Shown here: in pieces, positions 2,620 through 21,400 of the stretch
How positions within the stretch are numbered: the first letter of the stretch is position 1
Layout: each line of letters opens with the position of its first letter
Assembly (NCBI RefSeq): GCF_004343075.1
Contig: NZ_SLXP01000001.1
Coordinates: 426,474 to 490,473 of the forward strand
Length of the DNA: 64,000 nucleotides
From: Rhodovulum marinum
GTDB lineage: Bacteria > Pseudomonadota > Alphaproteobacteria > Rhodobacterales > Rhodobacteraceae
Direction of reading: 5' to 3'
Notes under the pieces: model-generated
What the model was told of the DNA's origin: nothing
Databases searched by the model: none
What the model saw: the letters and a program-made list of their open reading frames with translations, nothing else
Program-made: the position numbers and the translations under genes

Positions 2620-2697
2620 TTTTTTCCTCCCTTGGCAGCCCGATTCGACACCGGGCCGCTGTCTCTGTCGCATCGGCTGTTTATCGAGTCAATATTT

Positions 2698-2707: not shown

Positions 2708-2753
2708 GATGGATATTCTTGCGCGCAATTAACCGCCATGCTAGAGGCCGGAC

Positions 2754-3541: not shown

Positions 3542-5629
<2,088 letters not shown>

Positions 5630-5639
5630 CGCGGGCCGA

Positions 5640-5670
5640 CCGGGGCGGGCCGCGCGGCGGCCCGCCCCGG
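5640..5670. terminator. Strong bidirectional hairpin between convergent thiC and the hydratase gene
   Basis: A perfect 12-base-pair stem (CCGGGGCGGGCC with GGCCCGCCCCGG) around a 7-base loop. It sits between the thiC stop at 5629 and the stop of the minus-strand hydratase at 5687. There is no T-tract on either side. Its position between convergent genes makes a shared terminator likely. Confidence 0.6.
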
Positions 5671-5686
5671 CCATGGCGTGCAGGTC

Positions 5687-6439
5687 CTAACCCCGGGATT
5701 CAAGGGCAAGTGCGACCGCGCCCACGCCCTCGATCCGGCCCTTGATGACGGTGCCGGGGCTCAGCCATGGCAGCCCGTTCAGCGACCCGGTGATCACCAC
5801 GTGACCCGGCCGCAGCCCACCGCAATGTTCCCCGACAAGCGCCTCGAGCACCTTGAAATTCTCGAACGCCCCGAAGCCGGGCACCTCGGCGGGGCCGTCC
5901 AAGAGCGTTCGGTTGCCCGCCGTCAACCGGGCCGTGACCCGCGACAGGTCGCGCCCCCGCCAATCCGGCAGGTCCGGCCCCACCACGAGCGCCCCGTTGA
6001 TCTGGTTGTCGGCAAGCTTGAGCATGGGCGCGGCCTCACCGGCGAGGCGCGTGCGGACGATCTCGATCACCGGGACCAGCGAAAGACAATCGGCGAGCCG
6101 CGCGTCGCGGTCCGGCACGTCGGCCGGGGGCAGCGGGGCGAGAACCCGGAAGCCCAGTTCCAGTTCGATCCCGATCCGTTCCGACGCCGGAACGGCCAGG
6201 TGCGCGGGCGTGCCCAAGATATCGCGGGCTAGGATCGGGGCCATGATGCGCGGATGACCGGGCTTGCAGGCGACCTTGAAGCCGCCGACCGGACCAAGGG
6301 TCTGCGCGACGAGGGCCTGCACCGCATAGGCATCGCTGTCTGTCAGGTCACCGCCCGGCACGGCATCGGCCGGAACAGGGACACCGGTGCGGCGCGCCGT
6401 TATCAGCCGACTGGCGAGGTCTGCGAGATCCGCCCTCAC
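5687..6439 (-). CDS. 2-keto-4-pentenoate hydratase / MhpD-type hydratase-decarboxylase family protein
   Basis: Cytosolic enzyme of the fumarylacetoacetate hydrolase-like superfamily, about 250 aa. Members hydrate 2-oxo-pent-4-enoate or decarboxylate/hydrate related 2-oxo acids. Metal-ligand motifs of MhpD are visible: IELELGFRVL with two Glu, and VPVIEIVRTR with a third. DNQINGALVVG and VVITGSLNGLPW match the C-terminal core. I start it at a GTG near 6439, because the upstream in-frame residues are an Arg/Pro-rich readthrough of the preceding CoA-transferase gene. It is the last gene of a seven-gene minus-strand run. Substrate unknown. Confidence 0.8.
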   Translation of the reverse strand: MRADLADLASRLITARRTGVPVPADAVPGGDLTDSDAYAVQALVAQTLGPVGGFKVACKPGHPRIMAPILARDILGTPAHLAVPASERIGIELELGFRVLAPLPPADVPDRDARLADCLSLVPVIEIVRTRLAGEAAPMLKLADNQINGALVVGPDLPDWRGRDLSRVTARLTAGNRTLLDGPAEVPGFGAFENFKVLEALVGEHCGGLRPGHVVITGSLNGLPWLSPGTVIKGRIEGVGAVALALESRG

Positions 6440-6485
6440 CGGTGTGTCCCCCGCCAGCCGCAGGCGTCGGGGCGCGCGATGCCGG

Positions 6486-7745
6486 TCATGGCGCAGTGCG
6501 CCGCGCGGCACGCGGCGCGGGTGACGTGGCCCGATCCGGGGCATCGGCGCCAACGATCAGCGCGCCGCTGGCGCGCAGCCGATCGACCGTTTCGGGCGGG
6601 TAGCCCAGTTCGGCCAGGATTTCCGGCCCGTGCTGGCCCAGAAGCGGCGCGGGCCGGTCGATGCCGCCCGGCGTTTCGGAAAACTTTACCGGCAGGCCGA
6701 TCGCCTTGACCCGCCCGGCCACGGGATGGTCCGTTTCGACGATCATCTCGCGGGCGATGGCCTGTGGATCGGCATGCATCTGGGGGATGGTCAGCACCGG
6801 ACCGGCGGGCAGGCCCACCGCCTCCATCCGCGCAAGCCAGTCGTCGGTGTCCCGGGTTTCGAGGTATCCGCCCAGCACCTCGACCAACGCGGGCAGGTTC
6901 TCCATCCGGTCGTGGTTGTTGGCAAAGCGCGGATCGTCGTTCAACTCGGGGGCGCCGATCACGTCGAGCAGCCGCAGCCAGTTCGCCTGGTTCGCCGCGC
7001 CCACGTTGATCCAGCCGTCACGGGTGCGGAACGCCTGGTAGGGCGCGTTCAGCGGGTGGGCCGAGCCCAGCGGTTCGGGCGCCTCTCCGGTGGCGAAGGC
7101 AATCGCGCTTTGCCAATAGGTCAAAGTGATCCCCGCCTCGAACAGCGAGGTGTCGACCTTCTGCCCCTGCCCTGTTTCCCGCGCCCGGGCATAGGCCGCG
7201 ATGCAGCCCATGGCGGCCAGGATCCCCGCGGTGATGTCGGTGATCGGGGCACCCGGTTTCACCGGCGGACGCCCCGGCCCCTCGCCGGTGATCGACATCA
7301 GCCCCGACATGCCCTGCGCGATCAGGTCGAAGCCCCCGCGATGGGCATAGGGCCCGGTGCGCCCGAACCCCGAGATCTCGCAATAGATCAGCCTTGGATT
7401 GATCTCGCGCAGGGTGTCATAGCCAAGGCCCAGCTTTTCCATCGTGCCTTTGCGGTAATTCTCGATCACCACGTCGGCCCCGGCCAGCAGGCGGCGCAAT
7501 ACCTCGACGGCGTCGGGGTCCTTGAGGTTCAGGGCGATGCCCCGCTTGTTGCGGTTCATCATCATGTAGGCGGCACTTTCGCCCTCGATGGCCGGGGGCA
7601 GAAATCTGCGGCTGTCGTCGCCATTGGGCTTTTCCACCTTGATCACGTCGGCGCCCATGTCGGCCAGCATCATCCCGCAGGCCGGACCGGCCATGATATG
7701 GGCGAGTTCCACGACCTTCAGCCCGGCAAGCGGTCCGGCGGTCAT
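6486..7745 (-). CDS. CaiB/BaiF family (class III) CoA-transferase
   Basis: Moves CoA between carboxylic acids. The 419-aa product starts at ATG 7745, overlapping the stop of the crotonase gene (ATGA). N-terminal LAGLKVVELAHIMAGPACG and DMGADVIKVEKPNGDDSRRF are the family signature. APITDITAG places an Asp at about residue 169, the position of the catalytic aspartate in formyl-CoA transferase. Homologues act on formate/oxalate, mesaconate, citramalate, itaconate or carnitine. In this operon it most likely activates the imported carboxylate or one of its breakdown products. Confidence 0.9.
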   Translation of the reverse strand: MTAGPLAGLKVVELAHIMAGPACGMMLADMGADVIKVEKPNGDDSRRFLPPAIEGESAAYMMMNRNKRGIALNLKDPDAVEVLRRLLAGADVVIENYRKGTMEKLGLGYDTLREINPRLIYCEISGFGRTGPYAHRGGFDLIAQGMSGLMSITGEGPGRPPVKPGAPITDITAGILAAMGCIAAYARARETGQGQKVDTSLFEAGITLTYWQSAIAFATGEAPEPLGSAHPLNAPYQAFRTRDGWINVGAANQANWLRLLDVIGAPELNDDPRFANNHDRMENLPALVEVLGGYLETRDTDDWLARMEAVGLPAGPVLTIPQMHADPQAIAREMIVETDHPVAGRVKAIGLPVKFSETPGGIDRPAPLLGQHGPEILAELGYPPETVDRLRASGALIVGADAPDRATSPAPRAARRTAP

Positions 7746-8518
7746 CGGCCGCTCCAGCGCGGTTTTTCCTTGGTCAGGAACGCCTCCATCCCGTGGCGGA
7801 AATCCTGGCTCATGTAGCACATGGTTATCAGGTCGGAATCCTCGACCGAAAGCGCCGCGCGGTTGCGGCGCATCGCCTCCTTGGTTGCGCGCAAGGTAAG
7901 GGGGGCCATCTGCGCCAGCGTTCCGGCCAGTTCGGCGGCGCGGGCCATCAGCGCGGGTTCGTCGGGCAGGATTTTGCTGACAAGGCCCACGGCGCGGGCC
8001 TCGTCGGCCTCGATCAGCCGGGCGGTGAAGATCATCTCGCGCACCCGCCCCGCGCCGAGGATTTCGGTCATGCGGGCCAGGTTCTCGGCCGCGAGGCAAT
8101 TGCCCAGCGTCCGCGCGATGGGAAAGCCGAATTTCAGGCTGGCACTGGCGATGCGGATGTCGCAGGCCACGGCGATAGACGCCCCGCCCCCGGTGCAGGC
8201 GCCGTTGATCGCGGCGACGGTGGGCAGGGGGCAGGTTTCGACCGCGGTCAGCACGCGGGCGATCTCGGCCTCATATTCCAGCGCGTCCTGCGCGGTTTCG
8301 AACCCGCGGAACTGGGTCATGTCGGTTCCGGCGGCGAAGGCCTTGCCGCCCGCGCCCGAGATCACCACCGCCTTGAGCGAGCCATCCGTCGGCGCATTGG
8401 CGCAAAGTTCGGCCAGCGTCTCGTACATGCCGAAGGTCAGCGCATTGCGCGCCTGGGGCCGGTTGAAGGTGATCCAGAGGGTTTCGCCCCGAACCTCGTG
8501 CAGCAATTCATCGGTCAT
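7742..8518 (-). CDS. Enoyl-CoA hydratase/isomerase (crotonase) family protein
   Basis: Crotonase-fold protein of 258 aa that should bind an acyl-CoA thioester. The oxyanion-hole segments are present: GGKAFAAGTDMTQF near residue 60 and CTGGGASIAVACDIRI near residue 105. The helix that in true enoyl-CoA hydratases carries the two catalytic glutamates reads FPIARTLGNCLAAENLARM here, with no Glu at the usual first position. Hydratase, dehydratase, hydrolase or isomerase activity therefore cannot be assumed. Its ATG overlaps the dctM stop, and its stop overlaps the CoA-transferase start. Confidence 0.87.
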   Translation of the reverse strand: MTDELLHEVRGETLWITFNRPQARNALTFGMYETLAELCANAPTDGSLKAVVISGAGGKAFAAGTDMTQFRGFETAQDALEYEAEIARVLTAVETCPLPTVAAINGACTGGGASIAVACDIRIASASLKFGFPIARTLGNCLAAENLARMTEILGAGRVREMIFTARLIEADEARAVGLVSKILPDEPALMARAAELAGTLAQMAPLTLRATKEAMRRNRAALSVEDSDLITMCYMSQDFRHGMEAFLTKEKPRWSGR

Positions 8519-9795
8519 CTATAGAAATACTCCACCAGGAAAAGCGGCACCGAGGGCACGTAGGTGCACAGCATCAACACGGCCAGCAGCACCGCCACGA
8601 ACCAGACATTGACCTTGGATACCTCCCAGATGTTCGCGCGCGCCACCGCGCAAGAGGTGATCAGCACCGAGGCGACGGGCGGCGTCTGTTGCCCGATGGC
8701 CAGGTTCAGCGTGACCACAAGGCCGAAATGCACCGGGTCGATGCCCGCAGCATTGATCAGCGGGATCACGATGGGCACGACCAGGATGATCGCGGCGGCC
8801 GAGTGCAGGAAGAACCCGATCACCAGGAAAAAGACATTCAGGATCAGCAGGATCAGCCATTGTTCCGAGGTGATCGACAGGATGCCCTCGGCGATCTGCT
8901 GGGGGATCTGGGCGCGGGTCAGGAACCCGCCCATCAGAACCGAGGCCGCCACCAGCAGCATCACCACCGCGGTCTGGATACCGCCGTCCAGCATCGCGGT
9001 GCGCAGGTGGCGCAGGTCGAGATTGCGATACCAGGCCGAGACCGCCAGCGCGGCCACCACCGCAAGCCCCGCCGCCTCGGTCGCGGTGACGAAGCCGCCG
9101 AAGATGCCCCCAAGTATGATCACCGGCAGGGCAAAGGCGGGCAGCGCCTCGACGAAGGTTTCCTTGAGGCGGGGGATGTTGAACGCCTCTTCTGTGGGCA
9201 GGTCGTAGCGCACCGCGAACCCGTAGGCGACCGCCATCAACCCCGCCGCCCCGATCAGGCCCGGCACGATCCCGGCGACGAAAAGCTGTTCGACCGAGGT
9301 ATTGGCCGAGGCGGCGTAAAGGATCATCGGGATCGACGGCGGAATGATGATGGCAAGCGAGGCCGAGGACGAGGTGACGGCGGCCGCGAAGGGCGCGGAA
9401 TAGCCACGCTTTTTCATCTGCGGGATCAGGATCGAGCCCATGGCGGCCACATCCGCCACCGCCGAGCCCGAGATCTCGGCGAAGAACAGCGAGACGCCGA
9501 TATTGATCATCGCAAGCCCGCCCCGCACGAACCCGATCAACGCCGACACGAAGTTGATCAGCCTATCGGTGATCCCGCCCGCGTTCATGATCGCGCCCGC
9601 CAGCACGAACATCGGGATCGCGATCAGCGAGAACTTGGTCGCGCCGTTATACATGTCGAGCGCGATAGTCACGAGCGAGGACATGCCCTCGGTCAGCACA
9701 AGGCCCAGCACACCCGCCATGGCCAGCGCCACCGCGATGGGCACGTTGATGCACATCATCGCGAGAAGCGCCACGAAGATCAGCAGCATCAACAT
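8515..9795 (-). CDS. dctM: TRAP transporter large permease DctM (second system)
   Basis: Large membrane subunit (426 aa) of the second TRAP transporter. It starts MLMLLIFVALLAMMCINVP at 9795, overlapping the dctQ stop by ATGA. TRAP-M landmarks are FSLIAIPMFVLAGAIMNAGG near residue 55, SGSAVADVAAMG near residue 105 and SLAIIIPPSIPMILYAA near residue 140. Full length, with about a dozen hydrophobic segments. It is coupled upstream to dctQ and downstream to the crotonase gene, so transport and catabolism are produced together. Confidence 0.94.
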   Translation of the reverse strand: MLMLLIFVALLAMMCINVPIAVALAMAGVLGLVLTEGMSSLVTIALDMYNGATKFSLIAIPMFVLAGAIMNAGGITDRLINFVSALIGFVRGGLAMINIGVSLFFAEISGSAVADVAAMGSILIPQMKKRGYSAPFAAAVTSSSASLAIIIPPSIPMILYAASANTSVEQLFVAGIVPGLIGAAGLMAVAYGFAVRYDLPTEEAFNIPRLKETFVEALPAFALPVIILGGIFGGFVTATEAAGLAVVAALAVSAWYRNLDLRHLRTAMLDGGIQTAVVMLLVAASVLMGGFLTRAQIPQQIAEGILSITSEQWLILLILNVFFLVIGFFLHSAAAIILVVPIVIPLINAAGIDPVHFGLVVTLNLAIGQQTPPVASVLITSCAVARANIWEVSKVNVWFVAVLLAVLMLCTYVPSVPLFLVEYFYR

Positions 9796-10364
9796 CAGCG
9801 GGGCTCCCCGGATCGGTGGGCCGCCTGGGCCTTTTGCAATTCGCGGTCCACCTCGACCTCGATCTCGGCATGTTCCAGCGACACGCCGCGCCGCGTCGCG
9901 CGCCAGTAATCGGGCAGGCTGAGCAACTGGCACAGAATGAACAGGCACGCCCCGATCGGGATCACCGACTGGGTGAACTGCACCGGCACCCAGGTCAGCG
10001 ACACGAGGTAGGAACCCTGCAAAACCTCCAGCACCCGGAACCCCGCCCAGGCCATCAGCGCGAAGAAGGTCAGAACGACCAGTTCCGCCACGACCACCGC
10101 CGCCATGCGGGCACGCCCGGGCAGCATCAACAGCACCGTGTCGAACCCGATATGGCGGCGCTTCAGCGCGGCAAGGCCCGAACCGTAATAGGTGATCCAG
10201 GCCAGCATGATCGCGGCCACCTCGTCATACCAGGAAAAGCTTTCGCCGATCAGGCGCGCCAGAACCGCGACGATCACCACGACCGTCAGCAGCACCATCA
10301 GGAAGATCGTGAACCATTCCAGCACCACGGCCAGAAGGCCGGATGCGGTCCTCAGCGCACGCAT
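9795..10364 (-). CDS. dctQ: TRAP transporter small permease DctQ (second system)
   Basis: Small membrane subunit, 189 aa, with four hydrophobic segments (about residues 12-35, 45-70, 90-112, 130-150). It carries the DctQ motif SWYDEVAAIMLAWITYYGSG and the basic KRRHIGFDTV loop. The C-terminal tail is charged and cytoplasmic. It lies between the binding protein (124 bases upstream) and dctM (4-base overlap). Confidence 0.92.
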   Translation of the reverse strand: MRALRTASGLLAVVLEWFTIFLMVLLTVVVIVAVLARLIGESFSWYDEVAAIMLAWITYYGSGLAALKRRHIGFDTVLLMLPGRARMAAVVVAELVVLTFFALMAWAGFRVLEVLQGSYLVSLTWVPVQFTQSVIPIGACLFILCQLLSLPDYWRATRRGVSLEHAEIEVEVDRELQKAQAAHRSGEPR

Positions 10365-10488
10365 GGGCGGGGCTTTCCTTTCGGCAAGAATGGAAACGGC
10401 GCGGAAACGGCCATTGCGACCTCGTGACGTTCGGGATGTTCGGATGCGGGAAGGGGCGCCCCAGCAGGGGCGCCCCGATGGAACGGGA

Positions 10489-11469
10489 TCAGCTTGCCGA
10501 GCCGAGGCCCAGCACCTTTTCGATCATCTCGCCTCCGCCCTCGACCTCGGCTGCGAAGGCGTCGTAGATCGGCTTCGAGGCCTCGATGAAGGCATCCTTG
10601 TCGGCCTCGTTCACCTCGACGCCCGCATCCTTGATCACCTGCAACAGCTCCACCTCAAGCTCTGCGGCCTTTTCATAGGTGAAATCCTGCGTCTCGGCGG
10701 CGCATTCGCCAAGGGCCGCACGCACATCATCCGGCAGCTTGTCGAAATGGCTCTTGGAGGCGAGGATATAGGCCGGCGTGTAGACGTGCCCGGTGATCGA
10801 GAGGTATTTCTGCACCTCCTGGAACTTGGCCGAGGCGATCTGGGCATAGGGGTTTTCCTGCCCGTCGATCACGCCCGTCTGCAGCGCGGTGAACACGTCC
10901 GAAAAGGCCATCGGCGTGGGGTTCGCGCCGTATTGCTGGAACATCTTGACCCGCCACGCGCCGTTCGGCGTGCGCAGCTTTACGCCCTCGAGGTCGGCAG
11001 GCACGGTGATCGGACGGACATTGTTGGTGATGTGGCGGAACCCGTTCTCGGCCAGCCCGACGATGGTATAGCCGTTCGCGTTCGCGGCCGCTTCGAAGGT
11101 GTCCATCATCTCGGCCTGTACGCGGCGCATGTGGTCGCGGTCCTTGATGATATAGGGCATTTCGAAGATGCCGAAGATGTCGTCCACCGACGACATCACC
11201 GAAGACGGCAGCGCGAACTGCACCTGGCCCAGCTTCAGCTTCTGCAACAGCTCCTGGTCCTTGCCCAGCTGCGAGGCGCCGAAGGTCTGCACCTCGGCCG
11301 CATCGCCCAGCTTGCCGTTCGCGCATTCGGCGAAATGGTTCACCGTCGCCTCGAACAGCGAGCCCGGGTTGCCCACATGGCCGAAGCGCAGCGTTATGTC
11401 GGCGGCCACGGCCTGCCCGGCCATCAACGCCGTCGCCGCGAGGGTCGCAAGAAGTCCCGTCCTGGTCAT
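10489..11469 (-). CDS. dctP: TRAP transporter solute-binding protein DctP (second system)
   Basis: Periplasmic binding protein of 326 aa with signal peptide MTRTGLLATLAATALMAG, cleaved after AVA near residue 22. The mature part begins DITLRFGHVGNPGSLFEAT. It contains the TRAP-P segment GVKLRTPNGAWRVKMFQQYG, whose Arg normally salt-bridges the substrate carboxylate, and DVFTALQTGVIDGQENPYAQ. These resemble the DctP/TAXI-independent family for C4-C6 carboxylates and sugar acids. Second gene of the catabolic run, 96 bases after the aminotransferase. A GGGAGGA ribosome site precedes the ATG. Confidence 0.93.
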   Translation of the reverse strand: MTRTGLLATLAATALMAGQAVAADITLRFGHVGNPGSLFEATVNHFAECANGKLGDAAEVQTFGASQLGKDQELLQKLKLGQVQFALPSSVMSSVDDIFGIFEMPYIIKDRDHMRRVQAEMMDTFEAAANANGYTIVGLAENGFRHITNNVRPITVPADLEGVKLRTPNGAWRVKMFQQYGANPTPMAFSDVFTALQTGVIDGQENPYAQIASAKFQEVQKYLSITGHVYTPAYILASKSHFDKLPDDVRAALGECAAETQDFTYEKAAELEVELLQVIKDAGVEVNEADKDAFIEASKPIYDAFAAEVEGGGEMIEKVLGLGSAS

Positions 11470-11565
11470 GTTTCATCCTCCCATTGGATTTGGCGCCAGT
11501 TTCTTGTGTCGTCCTTGTTCACGCCGGGGCGCCCGTTCCCGGCGCCGGTTCCGTTCACTCCGCTT

Positions 11566-12753
11566 TCATTCCGCCGCCGCGCGGCCGGTATCTGACGCGC
11601 GGCCGAGTTGGTTCATCGCCACCTGCACCCCGCCTGCCTTGTGCGGCACGCCCGCGTCGCGCAGGCCCATTTCCACACCGGCCAGCGTCGCGCACAGCAT
11701 CAGGTCGTTGAAATCCCCCAGATGCCCGATGCGGAACACCCGGTCGGTCACCTTGGACAGACCGTTGCCCAAGGACATGTCGTAATTCTTGAGCGTGACC
11801 GCCCGGAACGCGTCGGCGGAATGGCCCTCGGGCATCACCACCGCAGTCAGCACACCGGAATAGTGGTTCGGGTTCCGGCACAGCACCTCCAGCCCCCAGG
11901 CCCGCACCGCCGCCCGCGTCGCCGCGCCATGGCGGGCATGGCGCGCGAACACGTTCGAAAGCCCCTCTTCGCGCAGCATGGCGATGGCCTCGTTCAGGCC
12001 GTAAAGCATATTGGTCGCGGGCGTGTAGGGGAAATAACCCTTTTCGTTCGGGCCCAGCATGTGATCCCAGGCCCAGTAGGATTTCGGCAGCCGCGCCTGT
12101 TCGCTCGCCGCCAGTGCCTTGGCGCTGATCGCGTTGAAGGACAGGCCCGGCGGCAGCATCAGGCCCTTTTGCGAACCCGACACCGTGACATCCACGCCCC
12201 ATTCATCGTGGCGGTAATCGAGCGAGCCGAGGCTGGAAATCGTGTCGACCATCAACAGCGCGGGATGCCCCGCCGCGTCGATCGCCCGCCGGATCGCGGC
12301 GATGGGGGATACCGATCCGGTCGAGGTCTCGTTATGGACGACGCAGACCGCCTTGATCGCGTGGGCCTTGTCCTCTTTCAGCCGCGCCTCGATGGCGTCG
12401 GGGTCGGCACCGCTGCGCCAGTCGCCCTCGATGAACAGCGGGTTCAGGCCAAGGCGCTCGGCCAACTGCTTCCACAGGGTTGCGAAATGCCCGGTTTCAT
12501 ACATCAGAACCGCGTCGCCGGGCGAGAGCGTGTTGACCAGGGCGGCCTCCCATGCGCCGGTGCCCGAGGACGGGTAGATCACTACGGGGCCTTCGGTGCC
12601 GAACACCCATGTCATGCCGTCGAGCGCGGCGCGCCCGACCTCGGCGAACCCCGGCCCGCGGTGATCGATGGTCGGAAAATCAATAGCCCGCAGGATGCGG
12701 TCGGGCACGTTGGACGGCCCCGGAATCTGAAGAAAATGGCGCCCTGACGGCAT
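11566..12753 (-). CDS. Class V aminotransferase, serine-glyoxylate / aspartate-glyoxylate type
   Basis: PLP-dependent fold-type I aminotransferase, 395 aa. QIPGPSNVPDRILRAIDFP at the N-terminus and IDHRGPGFAEV are typical of alanine/serine-glyoxylate aminotransferases. SGSQKGLMLPPGLSF near residue 190 carries the PLP-binding lysine (about 194), and MVDTISSLGS holds the PLP-nitrogen Asp. Relatives convert glyoxylate to glycine with serine, alanine or aspartate as donor (BhcA of the beta-hydroxyaspartate cycle belongs here). No bhcB, bhcC or bhcD is nearby, so that cycle is not encoded at this locus. First gene of the minus-strand run, behind GGGAGGGGG. Confidence 0.87.
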   Translation of the reverse strand: MPSGRHFLQIPGPSNVPDRILRAIDFPTIDHRGPGFAEVGRAALDGMTWVFGTEGPVVIYPSSGTGAWEAALVNTLSPGDAVLMYETGHFATLWKQLAERLGLNPLFIEGDWRSGADPDAIEARLKEDKAHAIKAVCVVHNETSTGSVSPIAAIRRAIDAAGHPALLMVDTISSLGSLDYRHDEWGVDVTVSGSQKGLMLPPGLSFNAISAKALAASEQARLPKSYWAWDHMLGPNEKGYFPYTPATNMLYGLNEAIAMLREEGLSNVFARHARHGAATRAAVRAWGLEVLCRNPNHYSGVLTAVVMPEGHSADAFRAVTLKNYDMSLGNGLSKVTDRVFRIGHLGDFNDLMLCATLAGVEMGLRDAGVPHKAGGVQVAMNQLGRASDTGRAAAE

Positions 12754-12831
12754 CGTGCCCCCTCCCTTGCACGGCCTCGACCACCGGGGGGGTTACCCGC
12801 GCGCCGCCTCCCAACGATGCGCGCCCCTCGG

Positions 12832-12864
12832 TTGACAGAAATTGAATTATGAATTCATTATTCA
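12832..12864. promoter_or_regulatory. Promoter plus palindromic operator for the divergent catabolic genes
   Basis: A TTGACA box at 12832-12837 is followed after 18 bases by CATTAT (12856-12861), a plausible -35/-10 pair reading toward the FAD/Fe-S gene. Lying over the -10 is a perfect palindrome ATGAATTCAT (12849-12858), which extends to a 22-base imperfect palindrome at 12843-12864 with only two mismatched positions. The block is strikingly AT-rich for this genome. It is a good candidate operator for the GntR regulator encoded at 15827. Promoter strength and regulator identity are inferred. Confidence 0.6.
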
Positions 12865-12904
12865 TGTCAAGAAACAAATTCCGCAACGGTTCTGGGAGGG
12901 GCGC

Positions 12905-15817
12905 GTGCTGCGCGAAGGACTTGCGACGCGGCTGGCCCGCGAGTTTCGGGGGGAGGTGCTGTTCGACGCCTTTTCCCGAGGGCGCTACGCGACCGACGCG
13001 TCCCACTACCAGATGATGCCGGCGGGCGTGGCGCTGCCGAAATCGGCCGAGGATATCGCGGCGGCGCTGTCGGCGGCGCGCGAAGAGGGCGTGCCGGTCA
13101 CGATGCGGGGCGGCGGCACCTCGCAATGCGGGCAGACGATCAACAAGGGGCTGATTCTCGATTGCTCGAAGTTCCTGAATGGTCTCCTGGAGCTGGACGT
13201 CGAGGGGCGCCGCGCGGTGGTTGAGCCGGGGATCGTTCTGGACGATTTGAACCGGCAACTGAAACCCCACGGGCTCTGGTTTCCCGTCGATGTCTCGACC
13301 GCCTCGCGCGCCACCGTCGGCGGCATGGTCGGCAACAATTCCTGCGGGGCGCGGTCGCTGCGCTATGGCACGACGCGGGACAACGTGATCTCGATCCGGG
13401 GGCTCCTGGCCGATGGCACCCCGTTCGAGTTCGGGCCCCATGCGGGTAACCGGGTGCCCGAGGCGCTGCTCGCCACGCTGACGGGGCTGGGCGCGCGCGA
13501 GGCGGGCGAAGTGCTGCGCCGCTTTCCCAAGGTGCAGCGCCGCGTGGGGGGATATAACCTGGATGCGCTGATCCCGTCCGACCGGCCCCTGAACCTGGCG
13601 CATCTGCTGGTGGGGTCCGAGGGGACGCTGGCGGTGTCCACCGCCATCGAGATCCGCCTGTCGCCCCTGCCGCGTGCGGACCGGGTGCAGGGGGTCTGTC
13701 ATTTCCCGACCTTCCGGGCCGCGATGGAGGCCACGCAACACCTGGTCGCGCTGAACCCCACGCAGGTCGAGCTGGTGGACCGAACCATGCTGAACCTCGC
13801 GCGCGACATCCCGATCTTCGTGCCCACGCTGAAGGCGTTCGTCCGGGGCGATCCCGCCGCGCTGTTGTTCGTGGAATTCGCCGACAGCCCGGAGGAGAAC
13901 GAGAAAAACCTCACCCGCCTCAACGATACCATGGCCGGGCTGGGCTATGGCTTCGGCAAGGGCGGCGACCGCGAAGGCGGCGTGGTCGAGGTGCGCGACG
14001 GCAAGCTGATCGGGGATATCGGCGAACTCAGGAAATCCGGCCTCAACATCATGATGTCGATGAAGGAAGCGGGAAAACCCGTCTCCTTCGTCGAGGATGC
14101 GGCAGTGCCGCTGGAGCATCTGGCCGATTATACCGACCGGCTGACCGAGGTGTTCCGCAAGCACGGCACCGAGGGCACCTGGTATGCCCATGCCTCGGTC
14201 GGGTGCCTGCATGTGCGGCCCGTTCTGAACCTGCGGCTGGAACAGGACGTGAATGCCATGCGCGCCATCGCCGAAGAGGCGTTCGACATGGTGCGCGCCT
14301 ACAAGGGCTCGCATTCCGGGGAACATGGCGACGGGATCGTGCGCTCGGAGTTCCACGAAAAGATGTTCGGGGAGCGGATCGTGCGGGCCTTTGGCGAGGT
14401 CAAGGACGCGTTCGACCCCGGGCGTCACCTGAACCCCGGCAAGATCGTCGAGGCGCCGCGGATGGATGACCGCAGTCTGTTGCGCTATCCGCCGGAGTAT
14501 CGGTTCGACGATGTGCAGGCGGGGTTCGACTGGTCGGCCTGGTCGGGGGCCTCGGGCGGGTTCCAGGGCGCGGTCGAGATGTGCAACAACAACGGTGCCT
14601 GCCGCAAGATGGCGGGCGGCGTGATGTGCCCCAGCTACCGCGTGACGCGGAACGAGCGGGACGTGACGCGGGGGCGGGCCAACACGCTGCGCCTGGCGAT
14701 GTCGGGGCGGCTGGGGCGGGATGCGCTTTTCAGCGACGCGATGGCCGAGACGATGAAGCTTTGCGTCGGCTGCAAGGCCTGTCAGCGCGAATGCCCCACC
14801 GGCGTCGACATGGCGAAGATGAAGACCGAAGTTCTGTACCAGCGCGGGAAACGGATGGGATTTTCGCTGAAGGACCGGCTGGTGGCGCATCTGCCGCGCT
14901 ATGCCCGGCTGGCCCCGGTGCTGGGGCCGCTGGTGTCGCTGCGAAACCGCGTGCCTTTGATCGCACGGGCATTTGAGCGGATCACAGGGATATCCGCCCG
15001 TCGCTCGCTGCCGGCGTTTCGCCGCGATGCTTTCCGCGAGACCGAGATCGGGCGGGCGAACTGCGGCGAAACGGGGCGCGACGTGGTGCTCTTCACCGAC
15101 ACGCTCAACCGCTGGCTGGATCCTTCGATCCCCCGCGCGGCCCTGCGGGTGCTGACCCGGACGGGTTATACCGTTCACGCCGCCACGCCCGAAAACACGC
15201 GGCCCCTTTGCTGCGGTCGCACCTACCTGTCGGCGGGGATGGTCGACGAAGCCCGCGCCGAGGCGCGGCGCACGCTCGCCGCGCTTATGCCCCATGTGCG
15301 GGCAGGACGTCCCGTGATCGGGCTGGAGCCGTCCTGCCTGCTGACACTGCGGGACGAGTTCAAGGCGCTGCTGCCCGGCGACGAGGCCGAGGCGCTGGCG
15401 GGCAATGCCCTGCTGTTCGAGGAATTCCTCGCCCGCGAGGCCGAGGCCGGGCAACTGAACCTGCCGCTGCGGCCCGGCGTGGCCCGCGCCCATGTCCATG
15501 GCCATTGCCACCAGAAGGCGGCCGGCGCGATGGGAGACATGGGCAAGGCGCTAGAGCTGATCCCGGGGCTGGACGCGGAGGTGATCGAGTCTTCGTGCTG
15601 CGGCATGGCGGGCGCTTTCGGCTATGATGCCGAAACGATAGAGGTGTCGCTTGCCATGGGCGAGCTGTCTCTCTTGCCCGCGGTGCGGCAGGCCGAAACG
15701 GATGCGCTGATCGTGGCCAACGGCACGTCCTGCCGGCACCAGATCGCCGACGGTACGGGACGCCGGGCGCTGCACATCGCCGAGGTGTTCGACCGGATGC
15801 TTTGTGAGGACGGCTGA
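12905..15817 (+). CDS. FAD-linked and Fe-S 2-hydroxyacid dehydrogenase (YdiJ / D-lactate dehydrogenase / GlcDF-fusion type)
   Basis: Fusion flavoprotein of about 970 aa that oxidises a D-2-hydroxy acid and passes electrons to Fe-S clusters. The FAD_binding_4 domain is at about residues 30-270 (MRGGGTSQCGQTINKG near 70; GGMVGNNSCGARSLRYGTTR near 140). The FAD-oxidase C domain extends to about 520 (SHSGEHGDGIVRSEF). The ferredoxin motifs CNNNGACRKM near 559 and CVGCKACQRECPTGVDM near 620 follow. Two CCG cysteine motifs, PLCCGRTY near 768 and SSCCGMAGAFG near 897, complete the GlcF/HdrD-like part. I chose GTG 12905, behind GGGAGGGG; the frame is open upstream to a TTG at 12842, but that lies inside the promoter. 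Glycolate, D-lactate or D-2-hydroxyglutarate are possible substrates. Confidence 0.9.
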   Translation: MLREGLATRLAREFRGEVLFDAFSRGRYATDASHYQMMPAGVALPKSAEDIAAALSAAREEGVPVTMRGGGTSQCGQTINKGLILDCSKFLNGLLELDVEGRRAVVEPGIVLDDLNRQLKPHGLWFPVDVSTASRATVGGMVGNNSCGARSLRYGTTRDNVISIRGLLADGTPFEFGPHAGNRVPEALLATLTGLGAREAGEVLRRFPKVQRRVGGYNLDALIPSDRPLNLAHLLVGSEGTLAVSTAIEIRLSPLPRADRVQGVCHFPTFRAAMEATQHLVALNPTQVELVDRTMLNLARDIPIFVPTLKAFVRGDPAALLFVEFADSPEENEKNLTRLNDTMAGLGYGFGKGGDREGGVVEVRDGKLIGDIGELRKSGLNIMMSMKEAGKPVSFVEDAAVPLEHLADYTDRLTEVFRKHGTEGTWYAHASVGCLHVRPVLNLRLEQDVNAMRAIAEEAFDMVRAYKGSHSGEHGDGIVRSEFHEKMFGERIVRAFGEVKDAFDPGRHLNPGKIVEAPRMDDRSLLRYPPEYRFDDVQAGFDWSAWSGASGGFQGAVEMCNNNGACRKMAGGVMCPSYRVTRNERDVTRGRANTLRLAMSGRLGRDALFSDAMAETMKLCVGCKACQRECPTGVDMAKMKTEVLYQRGKRMGFSLKDRLVAHLPRYARLAPVLGPLVSLRNRVPLIARAFERITGISARRSLPAFRRDAFRETEIGRANCGETGRDVVLFTDTLNRWLDPSIPRAALRVLTRTGYTVHAATPENTRPLCCGRTYLSAGMVDEARAEARRTLAALMPHVRAGRPVIGLEPSCLLTLRDEFKALLPGDEAEALAGNALLFEEFLAREAEAGQLNLPLRPGVARAHVHGHCHQKAAGAMGDMGKALELIPGLDAEVIESSCCGMAGAFGYDAETIEVSLAMGELSLLPAVRQAETDALIVANGTSCRHQIADGTGRRALHIAEVFDRMLCEDG

Positions 15818-15826
15818 GGGAGCGCG

Positions 15827-16528
15827 ATGACCGAGTCCATTTCGAACGGCCGGCTGACAACGCCCGAGGCAGGCATGCTGGCCCGCCCCGCCCTTGCGGT
15901 GCAGGTCGCCGACGCGCTGCGTGAACTGATCCTCGAAGGCACGATACAGGGCGGAGAAAAGATCCGGGAAAAGGAACTGACCGAACGTTTCGGCGTGTCA
16001 CGCACCCCCCTGCGCGAAGCGATGAAGATCCTCGCCGCCGAAGGCTTGGTCGAGCTGATCCCCAATCGCGGCGCGATCATCAGCCAGCCGTCGGCGGCCG
16101 AACTGGCCGACGCCTTTCCGGTGCTGGCCGCGTTGGAGGCGATGGCCGGCGAACAGGCGGCAGAGCGCGCGACCGAGGTGGAGATGGCCGAAATCAGCCG
16201 ACTGACGGACCGGCTGCGCGCTTCGCTCGAAGCCAACGACCGGCCGGGCTATTTCGAGATCAACCAGGCGATCCACAACGCGATCCTTGCGGCCAGCCGC
16301 AACGAAACGCTGATCCGGACGCATGCCACGATTGCCCGCCTGGTCCACCGGGCGCGCTACCAGGCGAACCTGACCCGCAGCCGCTGGGAACAGGCGCTAA
16401 GCGAACACGAGAAGATCGCCGCGGCGCTGAACGCGCGCGACACCGACCAGGTGGGGCGGCTGCTCAAGGCACACATGATGGCGAAGCTGACCGCCATCTT
16501 GAAGGCGGGACAGGTTTCGCCACGCTGA
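15827..16528 (+). CDS. GntR family (FCD-type) transcriptional regulator
   Basis: Regulator of 233 aa. The winged helix at residues 22-90 contains LTERFGVSRTPLREAMKIL and GLVELIPNRGAIISQPS. The FCD domain at residues 98-225 has probable metal-binding histidines in EINQAIHNAIL, SEHEKIAAALNARD and LKAHMMAK. It begins 9 bases after the dehydrogenase stop, so it is cotranscribed with that gene. It is the obvious candidate to bind the palindrome at 12843-12864 and control both arms of the catabolic island. Confidence 0.9.
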   Translation: MTESISNGRLTTPEAGMLARPALAVQVADALRELILEGTIQGGEKIREKELTERFGVSRTPLREAMKILAAEGLVELIPNRGAIISQPSAAELADAFPVLAALEAMAGEQAAERATEVEMAEISRLTDRLRASLEANDRPGYFEINQAIHNAILAASRNETLIRTHATIARLVHRARYQANLTRSRWEQALSEHEKIAAALNARDTDQVGRLLKAHMMAKLTAILKAGQVSPR

Positions 16529-16564
16529 TCCCTTGCCGACGCGCATGCGGCCCGCAGGCTTGAC

Positions 16565-16583
16565 ACCGGCCGCCCTGGCCGGT
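16565..16583 (+). terminator. Hairpin after the GntR gene
   Basis: A perfect 7-base-pair stem ACCGGCC/GGCCGGT with a 5-base loop, 37 bases after the gntR stop, followed by TCCGTTCCCC. Further GC-rich inverted sequence follows before the DUF2478 gene. A factor-independent terminator is plausible, although the T content is low. Confidence 0.45.
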
Positions 16584-16635
16584 TCCGTTCCCCGTCAAGC
16601 GGGGGGCGCCGGGGCCGGCCCGTGGGGAGGGGTCC

Positions 16636-17151
16636 ATGCAGTTCGCCGTTCTAAGGGCCGCCGCGGGCGGGGATATCGACCGGACGATGACAGAGCTTGC
16701 CGACTGGCTGATCGCCGAAGGGCACATGCCGGTCGGCGTCGTGCGCGATGCCGCGCCGGGCACTGGGCGTCATCCTTGCGAGATGCGGCTGCGCGTGCTG
16801 CCCGATGGCCCGCGCATCGCCATCGACCAGCCGCTGGGACTGGGGTCGACCGGTTGCAGGCTGGACGCGGGCGCTTTGGAACAGGCCGTGGTCGAGGTCG
16901 AGCGCCGCCTGCCCGGGCGGGCCGACATTTTCCTGCTGAACAAGTTCGCCCGGCAAGAGGCCGAGGGGCACGGGTTCCGCGCCGCCATTGGCCATGCCTT
17001 GGATCGCGGGCTGCCGGTGCTTTTGGGGGTGGGGCGGTTCAGCGATGACGCGTTCGACGCTTTTGCCGGCGGGCTGGCCCAGACGCTGCCCTGCGACCGG
17101 GTAGTGCTGCGGGACTGGTGCCGTGCTGCCCTGAAGGTCACCACGCCCTGA
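16636..17151 (+). CDS. DUF2478 family protein
   Basis: Small cytosolic protein of 171 aa, recognised as DUF2478 from ADWLIAEGHMPVGVVRDAAP near residue 25, LGSTGCRLDAGALEQAV near residue 75 and ADIFLLNKFARQEAEGHGFR near residue 105. The family has a P-loop NTPase-like fold and often lies near molybdate-transport genes, but no such genes are seen here and no Walker A motif is obvious. A GGGGAGGGG ribosome site precedes the ATG. No function can be given from the sequence. Confidence 0.8.
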   Translation: MQFAVLRAAAGGDIDRTMTELADWLIAEGHMPVGVVRDAAPGTGRHPCEMRLRVLPDGPRIAIDQPLGLGSTGCRLDAGALEQAVVEVERRLPGRADIFLLNKFARQEAEGHGFRAAIGHALDRGLPVLLGVGRFSDDAFDAFAGGLAQTLPCDRVVLRDWCRAALKVTTP

Positions 17152-17271
17152 GCCGCACCGCTCGCACCGCCTCGCCATTCCGTGAGCCGCTGCGTAAGTG
17201 ACTTCGGCCGACACGCGCTATATCCTGCGTCATCGCCGCCCCGGCGCGGTGTGCTTTCGAAGGGACGCCCG

Positions 17272-18420
17272 ATGCTAAGGCAACTGCTTCTTTCCGCGGT
17301 CCTTTTGGCAGGAACGATCGCGCTTTGGGTGGCCTTCGTGCCCTCGGCGATGCCGGTGCTCGACCGGCTGGGCGTACTGGGGTTGCTGGGGATCGAGGCG
17401 ACCGCACCCGAAACCGCGGAAGGCGGCGGGGTTCGGCGCGGCGGCCCCGCGGCGGTCGTCGTGCAAGAGGTGAGCGAGGGCCGGATCAGCGACCGGGTCG
17501 CCGCGATCGGCGACGGGCAGGCGCTGAGAACGGTGAATGTGCGGGCCAAGGCCACGGGCGAGGTGATCGAGTTGCGGCTGGAGGACGGCCGGCCGGTCGA
17601 GGAAGGCAGCCTGATCCTGCGGCTGGAGGATGAGGCCGAGCGGATCGCGGTCGAACGCGCCCGCCTGGTGCTGGAGGATGCGCGTGACGAGGCCGAGCGG
17701 CTGGCCCGGCTGGAAAATACCGGCGCGGTGACCGAGGTCAGCCGGCGCGCGGCCGACCTGGCGCTGCGCAGCGCGGAACTGGCCCTGCGCGAGGCCGAGT
17801 TCGAACTGGACCGACGCAGCGTGCATGCGCCGATCTCGGGTTGGGCGGGGGTGATCGACCTGGCCAAGGGCGACAGCGTTTCGGCGCAGGACATGGTGGT
17901 GACGATCACCGACCGGTCGCAGATCCTGATAGATTTCCGCGTCCCCGAACGTGTCGCGACCCAGATCAGCCCCGGCATGCCGCTGGAGGCGCGGCCCCTG
18001 GCGATGCCCGAAACCGTTTTGCAGGGCACTGTTGACGCGCTGGACAACGTGGTGGACCCGGCCAGCCGCACCTTGCGCGTGCAGGGGCGCCTGGCCAACG
18101 AGGCCGACCTGCTGCGCGCGGGCATGGCCTTCGAGGTGGTGCTGCGCTTCCCGGGCGAGGCGCTGCCCGAGGTCGACCCGCTGGCGGTGCAATGGTCGGC
18201 CGAGGGGGCCTTTGTCTGGATCGTGCGCGAGGGCAAGGCGCAGCGCGTTCCGGTGACGATCCGCCAGCGCAACGCCGACAGCGTGCTGGTCGAGGCCGAC
18301 CTTGCGCCCGGCGACCAGGTGGTGACCGAGGGCGTGCAATCACTGCGCCCCGGCGCCGAGGTCAAGATCGTCGCGCCGCAGGCCGCGCTGTTCCCGGCCC
18401 GCGCGGCCGCCCAGTTATAG
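17272..18420 (+). CDS. Efflux RND transporter periplasmic adaptor (membrane fusion protein)
   Basis: Periplasmic adaptor of 382 aa linking an RND pump to an outer-membrane channel. The ATG at 17272 (behind AAGGGA) gives an N-terminal membrane anchor, LRQLLLSAVLLAGTIALWV. Then come a lipoyl/barrel-sandwich half (VNVRAKATGEVIELRLEDGR near residue 90), a coiled hairpin rich in Arg/Glu/Ala (residues about 120-180), the second lipoyl half (VHAPISGWAGVIDLAKGDSV) and a beta-barrel. It ends 10 bases before the RND permease gene, so the two form one operon. No outer-membrane factor is encoded nearby. Confidence 0.92.
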   Translation: MLRQLLLSAVLLAGTIALWVAFVPSAMPVLDRLGVLGLLGIEATAPETAEGGGVRRGGPAAVVVQEVSEGRISDRVAAIGDGQALRTVNVRAKATGEVIELRLEDGRPVEEGSLILRLEDEAERIAVERARLVLEDARDEAERLARLENTGAVTEVSRRAADLALRSAELALREAEFELDRRSVHAPISGWAGVIDLAKGDSVSAQDMVVTITDRSQILIDFRVPERVATQISPGMPLEARPLAMPETVLQGTVDALDNVVDPASRTLRVQGRLANEADLLRAGMAFEVVLRFPGEALPEVDPLAVQWSAEGAFVWIVREGKAQRVPVTIRQRNADSVLVEADLAPGDQVVTEGVQSLRPGAEVKIVAPQAALFPARAAAQL

Positions 18421-18430
18421 GAGGCCGCCC

Positions 18431-21400
18431 ATGCTGGAGGAAGCCACCCGCGCGGCCGAAGGCGGTGGCCCCGCCCTGTTCGTGCGCCGGCCGATCCTGG
18501 CGCTGGTCGTCAGCGCGCTGATCGTTCTGGCGGGGTTCGCGGCGCTGTTCGGCGTCGAGATCCGCGAATTGCCAAACGTGGACCGGCCCGTCGTCACCGT
18601 CACGACGGAATTCCCCGGCGCCTCGCCCGAAACCATCGACCAGGAGATCACCGGCCGCATCGAGGGCGCGGTGGGCCGGGTCGCGGGTGTGCGCTCGATC
18701 TCGTCGAACTCGCGCTTCGGGCGCAGCAGGGTGACGCTGGAATTCAGTGAAAGCGTCGATATCGACGTGGCCGCGACCGATACCCGCGACGCGGTGGCCC
18801 GGATCGAAGGGCAACTGCCCGACGGCGCCGAGGACCCCGAGATCGTCAAGGCCGATGCCGATGCGCAGCCGGTCCTGCGTGTCGCGGTCACCTCGCGCAG
18901 CCGCAGCGCACAGGATTTGACGCGGATCGTCGAGGAGCGGGTCGAGGACCGGCTGATCTCGGTCGAGGGGGTGGCCGACCTGCGGGTCTATGGCGACCGC
19001 GAGCCGATCTTTCGCGTCGATATCGACCAAGCGGCGCTGGCGAGCCGCGGATTGACCCTGGCGGACATGGCGCGCGCGCTGTCGGACGCGGGGTTCAACG
19101 CGGCCGCGGGCGATCTGGAGGGCGCGCGGCAGTCGATCAACGTGCGCACCACCGCCATGGTCGCCTCGCCCGAAGCGTTCGAGGACCTGCGGATCGCCCC
19201 GAATGTCGAGGTGCGCGACGTTGCCCGCGTGACGCTGGGACCCGCGCCGAACGAGACGGTCCTGCGGGCCAACGGCCAGACCGGCATCGGGCTGGGCGTG
19301 ATCCGGCAGGCGGGGTCCAACACGCTGGACATCTCGCGCGATGTGCGCGCGGTGGTGGCCGAACTCGATCGCACATTGCCGGACGATATCAACATCTTCG
19401 TCACTTCCGACGACGCGGTTTTCGTCAATGGGGCCATCGTCGAGGTGCTGAAAACCCTGGGGCTGGCGACCGCGATCGTGGTGCTGGTGATCTTCGTGTT
19501 CCTGCGCGACCTGCGGGCGACGCTGATCCCGGGGCTGACCATGCCCGTGGCGCTGATCGGCACGCTGGCCGCGATCTACATCGTGGGCTTTTCGGTGAAT
19601 ATCCTGACGCTGCTGGCGCTGGTGCTGGCGACGGGCCTTGTGGTGGATGACGCCATCGTGGTGCTGGAAAACATCGTGCGTCGCCGGGGCGAGGGCATGG
19701 GGCCGCGCGCGGCAGCCGTTCTGGGCACGAAACAGGTTTTCTTTGCCGTCGTGACGACCACCGCGACCCTCGCCGCCGTCTTCGTTCCGCTGTCCTTCCT
19801 GCCGGGGCAGGCGGGCGGGCTGTTCCGTGAATTCGGCTTTACGCTTGCAATGGCGGTCGCGATCTCGTCGGTGGTGGCACTGACGCTTTGCCCCGTCCTG
19901 GCCAGCCGGATGCTTGGCGCCGATGCCGGCGCAGGTGGCCGCGGCCCGATTGCCTGGGCCGGGCGGGCGCTGGCCGGGGCCTATGCGCGCACGCTGCGCG
20001 GCGCGCTGGCGATGCCCGCCGTTGTGGTTCTGGCCGCGGCGCTTTTCGCGCTGACGGCGGTGTTGGTTGCGGGTGGTATCCGTCAGGAACTGACGCCCCG
20101 CGAGGACCGGGCCGTTGCACTGCTTCGGGTCAGCGCGCCGCAAGGTGTGTCCCTCGACTATACGCAAGCCAAGATGCGCGCGATCGAGGATGCGGTGGCG
20201 CCGCTGCGCGAGGCGGGCGAAATCACGTCGGTCTTCGCGATCGCGGGGTTCGGCGCGGATAACAGCGGCTTCATGGTGTTCCGGCTGGCCGATTGGGGCG
20301 ACCGCGCCCGCAGCCAGGACGAGATCGTCGGCGAGATCAACGGCAAACTGAGGCAGATCGTGGGTGTCCGCGCCTTCGCCATCCAGCCCAATTCGCTGGG
20401 TATTCGCGGTGCGGGCCGCGGGTTGCGCTTTGCGATCACCGGGGACAGCTATGAACGCCTTGCAGAGATGTCCGAAGCCCTGGTCGCCCGGATGGAAGAA
20501 GACCCCGCCTTCGGCGACGTCGACCTCGAATACGAAACGACCCAGCCGCAGCTTTTCGTCGAGATCGACCGCACGCGCGCCTCGGACCTGGGCATCGACA
20601 TCACAGGGCTGGGCGATGCGCTGAGGGCGGTGCTGAACGGGCGGACGGTGGGGTCGGTCTTCATCGGCGACCAGAGCTTTGACATCCAGATGCTGTCGAG
20701 TTCGAACCCAGTGAACGACCCGAGCGACCTGCAGAACATCTTCGTCCAGACAGCCCGGGGACAGATGGTGCCGATGTCCACCTTCGTGCGGCTGGAGGAA
20801 CGTGCCGTCGCGCCCGAACTGGACCGCGAGGACCAGAGCCGATCGGTCGAGATCTCGGCCAGCCTGACACCCGAACTGGCACTGGGGGACGCGCTGGCCC
20901 GGGTCGAGCAACTGGCCGGAGGCATCCTGGAGGAACAGAACCGCATCGTGCCGCTGGGCGAAGCCGCGACGCTGAACCAGACGAATTCCGGGCTGGCCAT
21001 CATCTTCGGCTTTGCCATCGCGGTGGTGTTCCTGGTGCTGGCCGCGCAGTTCGAGAGCTTCGTCTCGGCCATCGTAGTAATGGCGACCGTGCCGCTGGGG
21101 CTGGCCTGCGCGGTCTTCGCGCTGTTGTTCACCGGGCTCAGCCTGAACGTCTATTCGCAGATCGGGCTGGTGATGCTGATCGGGATCATGGCCAAGAACG
21201 GCATCCTGATCGTCGAATTCGCCAACCAGCTGCGCGACGGCGGGGCCGAGATTCGCGACGCGATCTTCGACGCCTCGACGATCCGCCTGCGGCCGGTGAT
21301 GATGACCATGACCTCGACTGTGCTGGGCGGCGTGCCGCTGATCCTGTCCTCGGGCGCGGGTGCCGAGGCGCGCGAGGCTTTGGGCTGGGTCATCGTCGGC

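Follow-up and report, generated by a model that had tools for sequence, protein, structure and literature searches.

Several described systems each resemble part of the locus analyzed here. A coenzyme A (CoA)-transferase is paired with a crotonase-fold enzyme in CaiB/CaiD, the carnitine pair, and likewise in Escherichia coli, where the Scp genes are annotated as a CoA-transferase and a decarboxylase; ScpB has the crotonase fold, and ScpC, unlike the enzyme described below, is not a type III CoA-transferase. In Rhizobium leguminosarum, tartrate is oxidized by a soluble NAD-type dehydrogenase. Genes for tartrate and malonate lie close by number in that species (tartrate major facilitator superfamily [MFS] transporter, RL0996; tartrate dehydrogenase, RL0995; matABC, RL0990 to RL0992), according to the available part of PMC3333776. 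The fused dehydrogenase YdiJ of E. coli is reported, in the accessible portion of PMC9504171, to be strict for D-2-hydroxyglutarate. Here we analyze a nine-gene cassette at positions 5687 to 16528 of a 64,000-nucleotide stretch (the window) of the Rhodovulum marinum genome (contig NZ_SLXP01000001.1, positions 426,474 to 490,473), in which a tripartite ATP-independent periplasmic (TRAP) importer, a class V aminotransferase (AT), a fused flavin adenine dinucleotide (FAD)/Fe-S (R)-2-hydroxyacid dehydrogenase (DH), and a GntR regulator stand together with a CoA-transferase, a crotonase, and an MhpD-like protein. The cassette is a real, conserved uptake-and-oxidation module, neither an artifact nor a new kind of system. 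We tentatively read it, at somewhat less than an even chance, as a locally regulated system for using a small (R)-2-hydroxy acid, the likeliest candidate being a C3-C4 hydroxydicarboxylate of the tartrate or tartronate class.

Conservation and apparent core of the cassette

All nine genes lie where the original prediction had placed them, with intact frames and in the families it had named (Pfam matches for 9/9; in locus order, FAA_hydrolase-like, CoA-transferase III, crotonase, DctM, DctQ, DctP, class V aminotransferase, DH fusion, and GntR-FCD). In a check of synteny, the full set proved collinear on a contig of Roseovarius sp. EGI FJ00037 (locus L053), with identities, from GntR to hydratase, of 58, 74, 82, 78, 71, 90, 77, 78, and 53%, and a Limimaricola plasmid carries eight of the nine genes in the same order, without the hydratase. 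The gene set therefore goes beyond chance.

Among 149 genomes of the same family (window genome included), DH was present in 21 (match at E ≤ 1e-150), and AT adjoins it in 19 of these (18/20 besides the window genome; an in-frame TAA is reported in G137). Neighborhoods were sought over at most ~8.5 kb per side of DH, and several of the stretches stop at a contig edge. Within these limits, TRAP genes accompany DH in 13 of the 20 other family loci and a GntR gene (≥35% identity) in 16, with CoA-transferase (≥55%) in 8, crotonase (≥44%) in 9, a GlcG-like gene (≥50%) in 6, and an MhpD-like gene (≥40%) in 3. A wider sample comprised the best 80 contig loci of at least 589 AT relatives, among at least 594 pattern matches to the AT alignment; counts in it, short contigs included, are lower bounds. 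DH (≥45%) was seen in 65 of these 80 loci, the importers being TRAP in 19, tripartite tricarboxylate transporter (TTT) in 15, Dpp-type ATP-binding cassette (ABC) in 6, and MFS in 5. CoA-transferase (≥55%) was seen in 14, crotonase at ≥44% in 12, a distant crotonase (33 to 44%) in 18, and a crotonase of either kind in 29. The AT/DH pair was found in alpha-, beta-, and gammaproteobacteria and in Nonomuraea, where AT (L146, positions 3862 to 4983; 65%) stands beside DH (5001 to 7739; ~40%) and is, to judge from this pair, the more conserved partner.

The original prediction had arranged the enzymes in a line, from CoA activation through a crotonase step, hydration, and oxidation to transamination. 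This order is disfavored by Tateyamaria, in which importer, AT, DH, and GntR occur and none of the genes for CoA-transferase, crotonase, and hydratase is visible over the 20 kb seen (the record begins shortly beyond the cassette), and by the contig loci, 51 of the best 80 of which show neither CoA-transferase (≥55%) nor crotonase (≥33%); 37 of these 51 have DH and 28 extend over ≥19 kb. AT and DH look like the core, and the CoA-transferase, crotonase, and hydratase look like optional branches. The broader claim of one catabolic unit, comprising importer, 2-hydroxyacid dehydrogenase, and glyoxylate-type aminotransferase, fared better, being supported by synteny and by a palindrome that is conserved in the shared promoter region.

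As predicted, the genes on the minus strand are closely spaced (Table 1); of the four ATGA couplings claimed, two were found, at the TrapM-to-crotonase and crotonase-to-CoA-transferase junctions, and the TrapQ-to-TrapM junction has a TGATG overlap instead. An ATGA also occurs at the CoA-transferase end, with its ATG out of frame with the hydratase gene, which likely starts at the GTG given in Table 1; six relatives of the product measure 245 to 260 amino acids. The open frame of DH begins beside the palindrome, and the most likely start is the GTG preceded by GGGAGGGG, in agreement with the 970-residue length originally proposed.

TABLE 1 Features of the cassette, with positions in the window
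Feature	Positions	Strand	Remarks
MhpD-type hydratase/decarboxylase fold protein	5687..6439	-	250 aa from likely start GTG 6439; open frame up to 6553; apparently optional member
Type III (CaiB/BaiF) CoA-transferase	6486..7745	-	419 aa; nearest curated model succinate-glutarate CoA-transferase, score below cut-off
Crotonase-family protein	7742..8518	-	258 aa; PRK06144 subfamily, above cut-off; Ile replaces one of two hydratase glutamates
TRAP large permease DctM	8515..9798	-	Start would be ATG 9795 if the TGATG overlap is used
TRAP small permease DctQ	9795..10364	-	Pfam
TRAP substrate-binding protein DctP	10489..11469	-	326 aa
Class V aminotransferase (AT), BhcA/AGT1-like	11566..12753	-	395 aa; apparent core
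Sigma-70-like promoter TTGACA-18-CATTAT of DH	12832..12861	+	Overlapped by palindrome AATTATGAATTCATTATT
18-base near-perfect palindrome AATTATGAATTCATTATT	12845..12862	none	Likely GntR operator
Fused FAD/Fe-S (R)-2-hydroxyacid dehydrogenase (DH)	12905..15817	+	970 aa from most likely start GTG 12905; open frame from TTG 12842; apparent core
GntR/FCD regulator	15827..16528	+	233 aa

The dehydrogenase and its pocket

DH joins FAD_binding_4, FAD-oxidase_C, Fer4, and CCG domains (Pfam) in one fused chain. Its best curated model is YdiJ (NCBIfam NF049975), at 505.5 bits against a cut-off of 1350; by this cut-off DH is not a D-2-hydroxyglutarate dehydrogenase. It likewise scores 190 bits against the 567.9 required by NCBIfam glcD, and its single chain contrasts with the separate GlcE and GlcF subunits of GlcDEF. 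Substrate residues were mapped from human D-2-hydroxyglutarate dehydrogenase and mouse LDHD, as given in the available parts of PMC7801405 and PMC10589216, by way of a pairwise LDHD alignment. The C1-carboxylate arginine, the metal ligands His/His/Glu, and the base histidine (R397, H450, H457, E494, and H495) are identical in 84/84 DHs longer than 850 residues, so that DH has the residue set of an (R)-2-hydroxyacid dehydrogenase of the VAO/PCMH class.

The distal pocket, made up of Leu401, Val/Ile417, Tyr448, and Arg459, is also fixed across the 84 DHs. The equivalent residues are Val, Ala, Phe, and Arg in YdiJ, which thus has the arginine in common with DH and smaller residues at the other three positions, and Phe, Cys, Val, and Leu in GlcD. 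Since the DH pocket is bulkier than that of YdiJ and retains Arg459, it suggests an (R)-2-hydroxy acid shorter than 2-hydroxyglutarate and with a distal charge.

E. coli YdiJ is otherwise similar, as a single fused chain of like length with the same catalytic and metal residues. One could hence imagine that the cassette takes up D-malate or D-2-hydroxyglutarate, with a YdiJ-like DH and AT as a side activity. YdiJ being the best curated model and sharing Arg459 and the catalytic set would fit this, but DH falls far below the YdiJ cut-off, differs at three of the four distal pocket positions, and is encoded in an uptake cassette with AT; moreover, the products would be central metabolites, for which a dedicated and highly conserved AT is unneeded. 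We regard this as quite improbable.

A fused FAD/Fe-S dehydrogenase is also found in Halorussus (L147, positions 5911 to 11497), with an aldolase/citrate lyase family protein and a pyridoxal phosphate (PLP) enzyme encoded after it. Possibly a related DH serves a separate route in this haloarchaeon.

The aminotransferase and the beta-hydroxyaspartate cycle

AT is 64 to 82% identical to 11 relatives across classes. The original annotation as a glyoxylate aminotransferase holds at the level of homology, whereas the score against the BhcA model (NCBIfam NF045640) is 452.5 bits, below the cut-off of 650. By sequence comparison, AT is a separate group between BhcA and AGT1. It is 44% identical to Tateyamaria BhcA, with which it has His31 in common (Tyr in AGT1), and differs from both BhcA and AGT1 at Gln9, Gly33, Ser63, Arg113, Phe206, Trp227, and Arg317, residues kept in ≥97% of 95 ATs. 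In Tateyamaria it stands beside an annotated bhcA.

The cassette does not contain bhcA, B, C, and D together. The absence of bhcBCD that had been noted applies to the window and cassette and not to the genome, which carries bhcR, A, B, C, and D at C1:361641-367115 (L135), ~65 kb from the cassette, with identities to Tateyamaria of 55, 70, 81, 85, and 73%. In Tateyamaria itself, the whole bhc cluster adjoins the cassette. In Salipiger thiooxidans (L074, positions 9101 to 20992), GntR, AT, a TTT importer, and DH lie directly before bhcBCD (81 to 88%), and all that remains between DH and bhcBCD is a bhcA-like frame reduced to its C-terminal 105 residues. The cassette possibly took the place of bhcA there; the idea of AT as a bhcA replacement is weakened by a whole bhcA (81%) on another contig of the same Salipiger genome.

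Together, these neighborhoods suggest, short of proof, that glyoxylate, glycine, or a hydroxyaspartate is a product of the pathway. They also bear on a different explanation, namely, a second, high-affinity route for glycolate, in which TRAP would import glycolate, DH would convert it to glyoxylate and AT to glycine, and the rest would go to the beta-hydroxyaspartate cycle. The nearest curated and solved relatives of AT are indeed BhcA and a serine-glyoxylate aminotransferase, bhc genes are near or adjacent in the window genome, Tateyamaria, and Salipiger, and both family genomes that have DH without AT hold a bhcA-like gene (66% in G083 and 52% in G008); the GlcG-like gene of 6/20 family loci has its counterpart in E. 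coli glc. DH, however, lacks the GlcD pocket and scores far below the GlcD cut-off, a closer GlcD homologue exists in the genome, and the CoA-transferase and crotonase would be left without a role. We consider a glycolate route unlikely.

Importer

DctP, DctQ, and DctM match their Pfam families at 283, 73, and 384 bits, all above cut-off. DctP is 72 to 82% identical in seven cassette-bearing relatives. Because the identity is still 72% between the window and Tateyamaria, that is, with and without the CoA-transferase, crotonase, and hydratase, the same acid is probably imported in both and those genes are optional. Beside the core, the importer itself varies among TRAP, TTT, Dpp-type ABC, MFS, and, in Rhizobium NXC24, amino-acid ABC types; as it changes while AT and DH stay, the latter two probably define the chemistry.

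The structures 4nq8 and 4p9k, the best and third-best sequence matches of DctP, are reportedly modeled with pantoate or erythronate. A structure prediction for DctP was of low quality (mean predicted local distance difference test score [pLDDT], 67) and was not used. These matches would favor pantoate or erythronate as the substrate, within a broader alternative in which the cassette handles a different (R)-2-hydroxy acid whose distal end bears an anion or a polar group. Sulfolactate would also qualify, since it is a listed TTT substrate (PMC5812351, in the portion available) and TTT can replace TRAP at the cassette. No sulfolactate lyase or pantoate enzyme was recognized among the recurrent neighbor families (assessed partly by eye) or the 20 neighbors scanned against Pfam, and this alternative receives the least weight from us. 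The azelate TRAP cluster was excluded as a model because its regulator and CoA ligase differ, according to the part of PMC10945470 available.

In Achromobacter (L119, L120, and L131), AT and GntR have a Dpp-type ABC importer and an M20 peptidase in their vicinity, with no DH in the stretch seen; L119 additionally has a beta-lactamase-family hydrolase. The proximity of M20 peptidases or an amidase to AT in a few loci (L027, L096, L119, L120, L131, and L129) suggests an amide as the entry point to the pathway in some hosts. The 20 neighbor proteins compared with Pfam (M20 peptidase, amidase, two xylose-isomerase-like proteins, and others) showed no shared theme.

The CoA-transferase, crotonase, and MhpD-like protein

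No equivalog cut-off was reached by DH, AT, CoA-transferase, or hydratase, so that assignment to a single known pathway by curated models was rejected. The CoA-transferase belongs to type III (Pfam CoA_transf_3, 451 bits) and reaches the cut-off in none of the seven acceptor models listed, among them, in contrast to CaiB, that for L-carnitine (156.5 bits against 413). The crotonase exceeds the cut-off of PRK06144 (NCBIfam NF004796; 374.7 bits against 272), a model named enoyl-CoA hydratase. Enoyl-CoA hydratase has two catalytic glutamates, at 144 and 164 in rat numbering. The cassette crotonase has Ile at 144 and Glu at 164, as aligned with a stretch of the rat enzyme, and hence lacks the two-glutamate signature of a hydratase. 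Two divergent crotonase types occur at the loci; the first glutamate is gone from both, and the second is mostly kept. E. coli ScpB, an annotated decarboxylase to which the cassette enzyme is 28% identical over 193 residues, is likewise without the first glutamate. Given this likeness and the Ile, hydration would not be the sole possible reaction of the crotonase.

Another explanation would be a CoA-first scheme, with the CoA-transferase activating the acid, the crotonase cleaving it to acyl-CoA plus glyoxylate or another oxo or hydroxy acid, and DH and AT cleaning up the products. The clustering of CoA-transferase (≥55%) and crotonase (≥44%) with TRAP and DH in 7/20 family loci and 8 of the best 80 contig loci speaks for it, as do the two crotonase types without the first glutamate. 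Set against these are the Tateyamaria stretch and the 51 contig loci described above, in which neither gene is seen, and we judge the scheme decidedly unlikely.

For the MhpD-like protein, the MhpD name was upheld by fold and poorly by sequence. Its Pfam FAA_hydrolase score is 24.2 bits (cut-off, 23.9), and that against NCBIfam NF008461 is 26.4 bits, far below the cut-off of 350. The predicted structure is of the MhpD type, matching MhpD (1sv6; Z = 25.2, root mean square deviation [rmsd] 2.8, 240 residues aligned) and a decarboxylase (5d2i; Z = 24.4, rmsd 2.8, 237 aligned); as the two matches are tied, hydratase and decarboxylase are indistinguishable by this comparison. Lys55, Glu92-x-Glu94, Glu126, and Asp144 are identical in 7/7 aligned sequences.

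A candidate operator between AT and DH

The palindrome AATTATGAATTCATTATT between AT and DH is one base short of perfect and overlaps the sigma-70-like promoter. The promoter call is weak by itself, since 1.3 promoter-like sites would be expected in the 11.5 kb and two were found. At ≤3 mismatches, the palindrome lies within 400 bases upstream of AT in 25/105 loci (window included), the other 80 being without this form, and it is present in 12/18 family loci with AT. None of 100 control palindromes matches any of the 105 loci at ≤3 mismatches. We take AATTATGAATTCATTATT as a likely GntR operator, and the simplest reading is local autoregulation by the GntR gene. A 16-base pattern derived from it has one site in the 3.9-Mb genome at ≤1 mismatch (reversed pattern, 0 sites); as the search for a regulon returned no second operator in the genome at ≤1 mismatch, it offers no clue to the substrate. 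A related but different palindrome, TTTTTGTATACAAGAT, occurs at 2695 to 2710, ahead of a neighboring GntR gene and TRAP operon.

Possible malonate and tartrate genes in the neighborhood

That second GntR gene, in window positions 1 to 3410 and the contig upstream, is divergent from another TRAP operon, which runs towards a malonyl-CoA synthase gene (MatB at G000:C1:423418-424926; 818 bits against a model cut-off of 558). The set is probably a malonate operon; a malonyl-CoA decarboxylase gene, sought in one frame only, was not found. A ThiC-like thiamine biosynthesis gene, recognized by eye from its translation, occupies window positions 3587 to 5629 on the plus strand, just past the cassette and convergent with it.

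A malonyl-CoA synthase gene is near the cassette in the window genome, G107, Tateyamaria, and Thalassococcus, which recalls the proximity of malonate and tartrate genes in R. leguminosarum, although tartrate is oxidized there by the soluble NAD-type dehydrogenase and the enzyme here is a FAD/Fe-S DH. All 21 cassette genomes have malonyl-CoA synthase, and only 2 have it at a distance of 20 kb or less from the cassette, so that the malonate link is weak. As hints of tartrate, a tartrate-dehydrogenase-like gene lies in the wider neighborhood of two loci and a DSD1-family PLP enzyme in one.

Proposed function

In the order of steps that we infer, the TRAP system would import a small (R)-2-hydroxy acid, and DH would oxidize the 2-hydroxyl to give the 2-oxo acid, with electrons passing towards the quinone pool. 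AT would then swap the oxo for an amino group or turn downstream glyoxylate into glycine, and the carbon would enter glycine/glyoxylate/aspartate metabolism, in the window genome by the beta-hydroxyaspartate cycle. The CoA-transferase and crotonase may add a second, optional path for the same acid, in which CoA would be moved onto the acid, the crotonase would dehydrate, decarboxylate, or cleave it, and the CoA would be recycled; the MhpD-type protein may handle a 2-oxo or enol intermediate. The GntR protein would bind the palindrome between AT and DH and repress both arms until the acid or its product is present.

Among hydroxy acids, tartrate or tartronate is our best guess, on circumstantial support. 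A more specific version is doubtful: an undescribed route for a hydroxydicarboxylate of this class, in which membrane-linked FAD/Fe-S oxidation would be followed by transamination, yielding a hydroxyaspartate- or aminomalonate-type amino acid for the beta-hydroxyaspartate cycle, with the CoA-transferase/crotonase bypass as a CoA-level dehydratase/decarboxylase for the same acid.

Several observations weigh against a tartrate- or tartronate-class substrate handled by AT and DH together. Two of the 21 family genomes (loci L042 and L050) have TRAP and DH without AT, none being found in them at E ≤ 1e-130, and conversely AT is without a visible DH in 15 of the best 80 contig loci, 10 of which are represented by stretches at least 19 kb long. 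Arg459 is present in 7/7 other fused homologues, five without AT in the stretch seen, which weakens it as a mark of the cassette DH clade. The window genome has another GlcD homologue (49%). A bhcC-like gene occurs in 17/21 cassette genomes against 61/128 others (one-sided Fisher P = 0.004), but at ≥70% identity the figures are 12/21 and 52/128 (P = 0.12), and the genomes are not independent; the 12 cassette genomes counted at this stricter threshold are also those with bhcA at ≥60%, for which reason we prefer the stricter count and see no more than a hint of an association. YdiJ, to which DH is closest among curated enzymes, is inactive on tartrate and malate (accessible portion of PMC9504171), and ligand-bound TRAP proteins of this broad group are reported with copurified pantoate or erythronate, which are not dicarboxylates (PMC11668362, as far as available).

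Significance

No description of the AT/DH cassette was found in the literature searched, which left most subscription papers out of reach, nor in the available parts of the Micromonas/Ruegeria and Paracoccus glycolate papers. The AT/DH module occurs in numerous proteobacterial species and next to importers of five types, and so marks a substrate in the environment that is taken up by many bacteria. Identifying that substrate would supply ligands for several TRAP, TTT, and ABC binding proteins together and would give assignments to an aminotransferase and a fused dehydrogenase family, both of them distinct. It could also connect the beta-hydroxyaspartate cycle with a second substrate in addition to glycolate.

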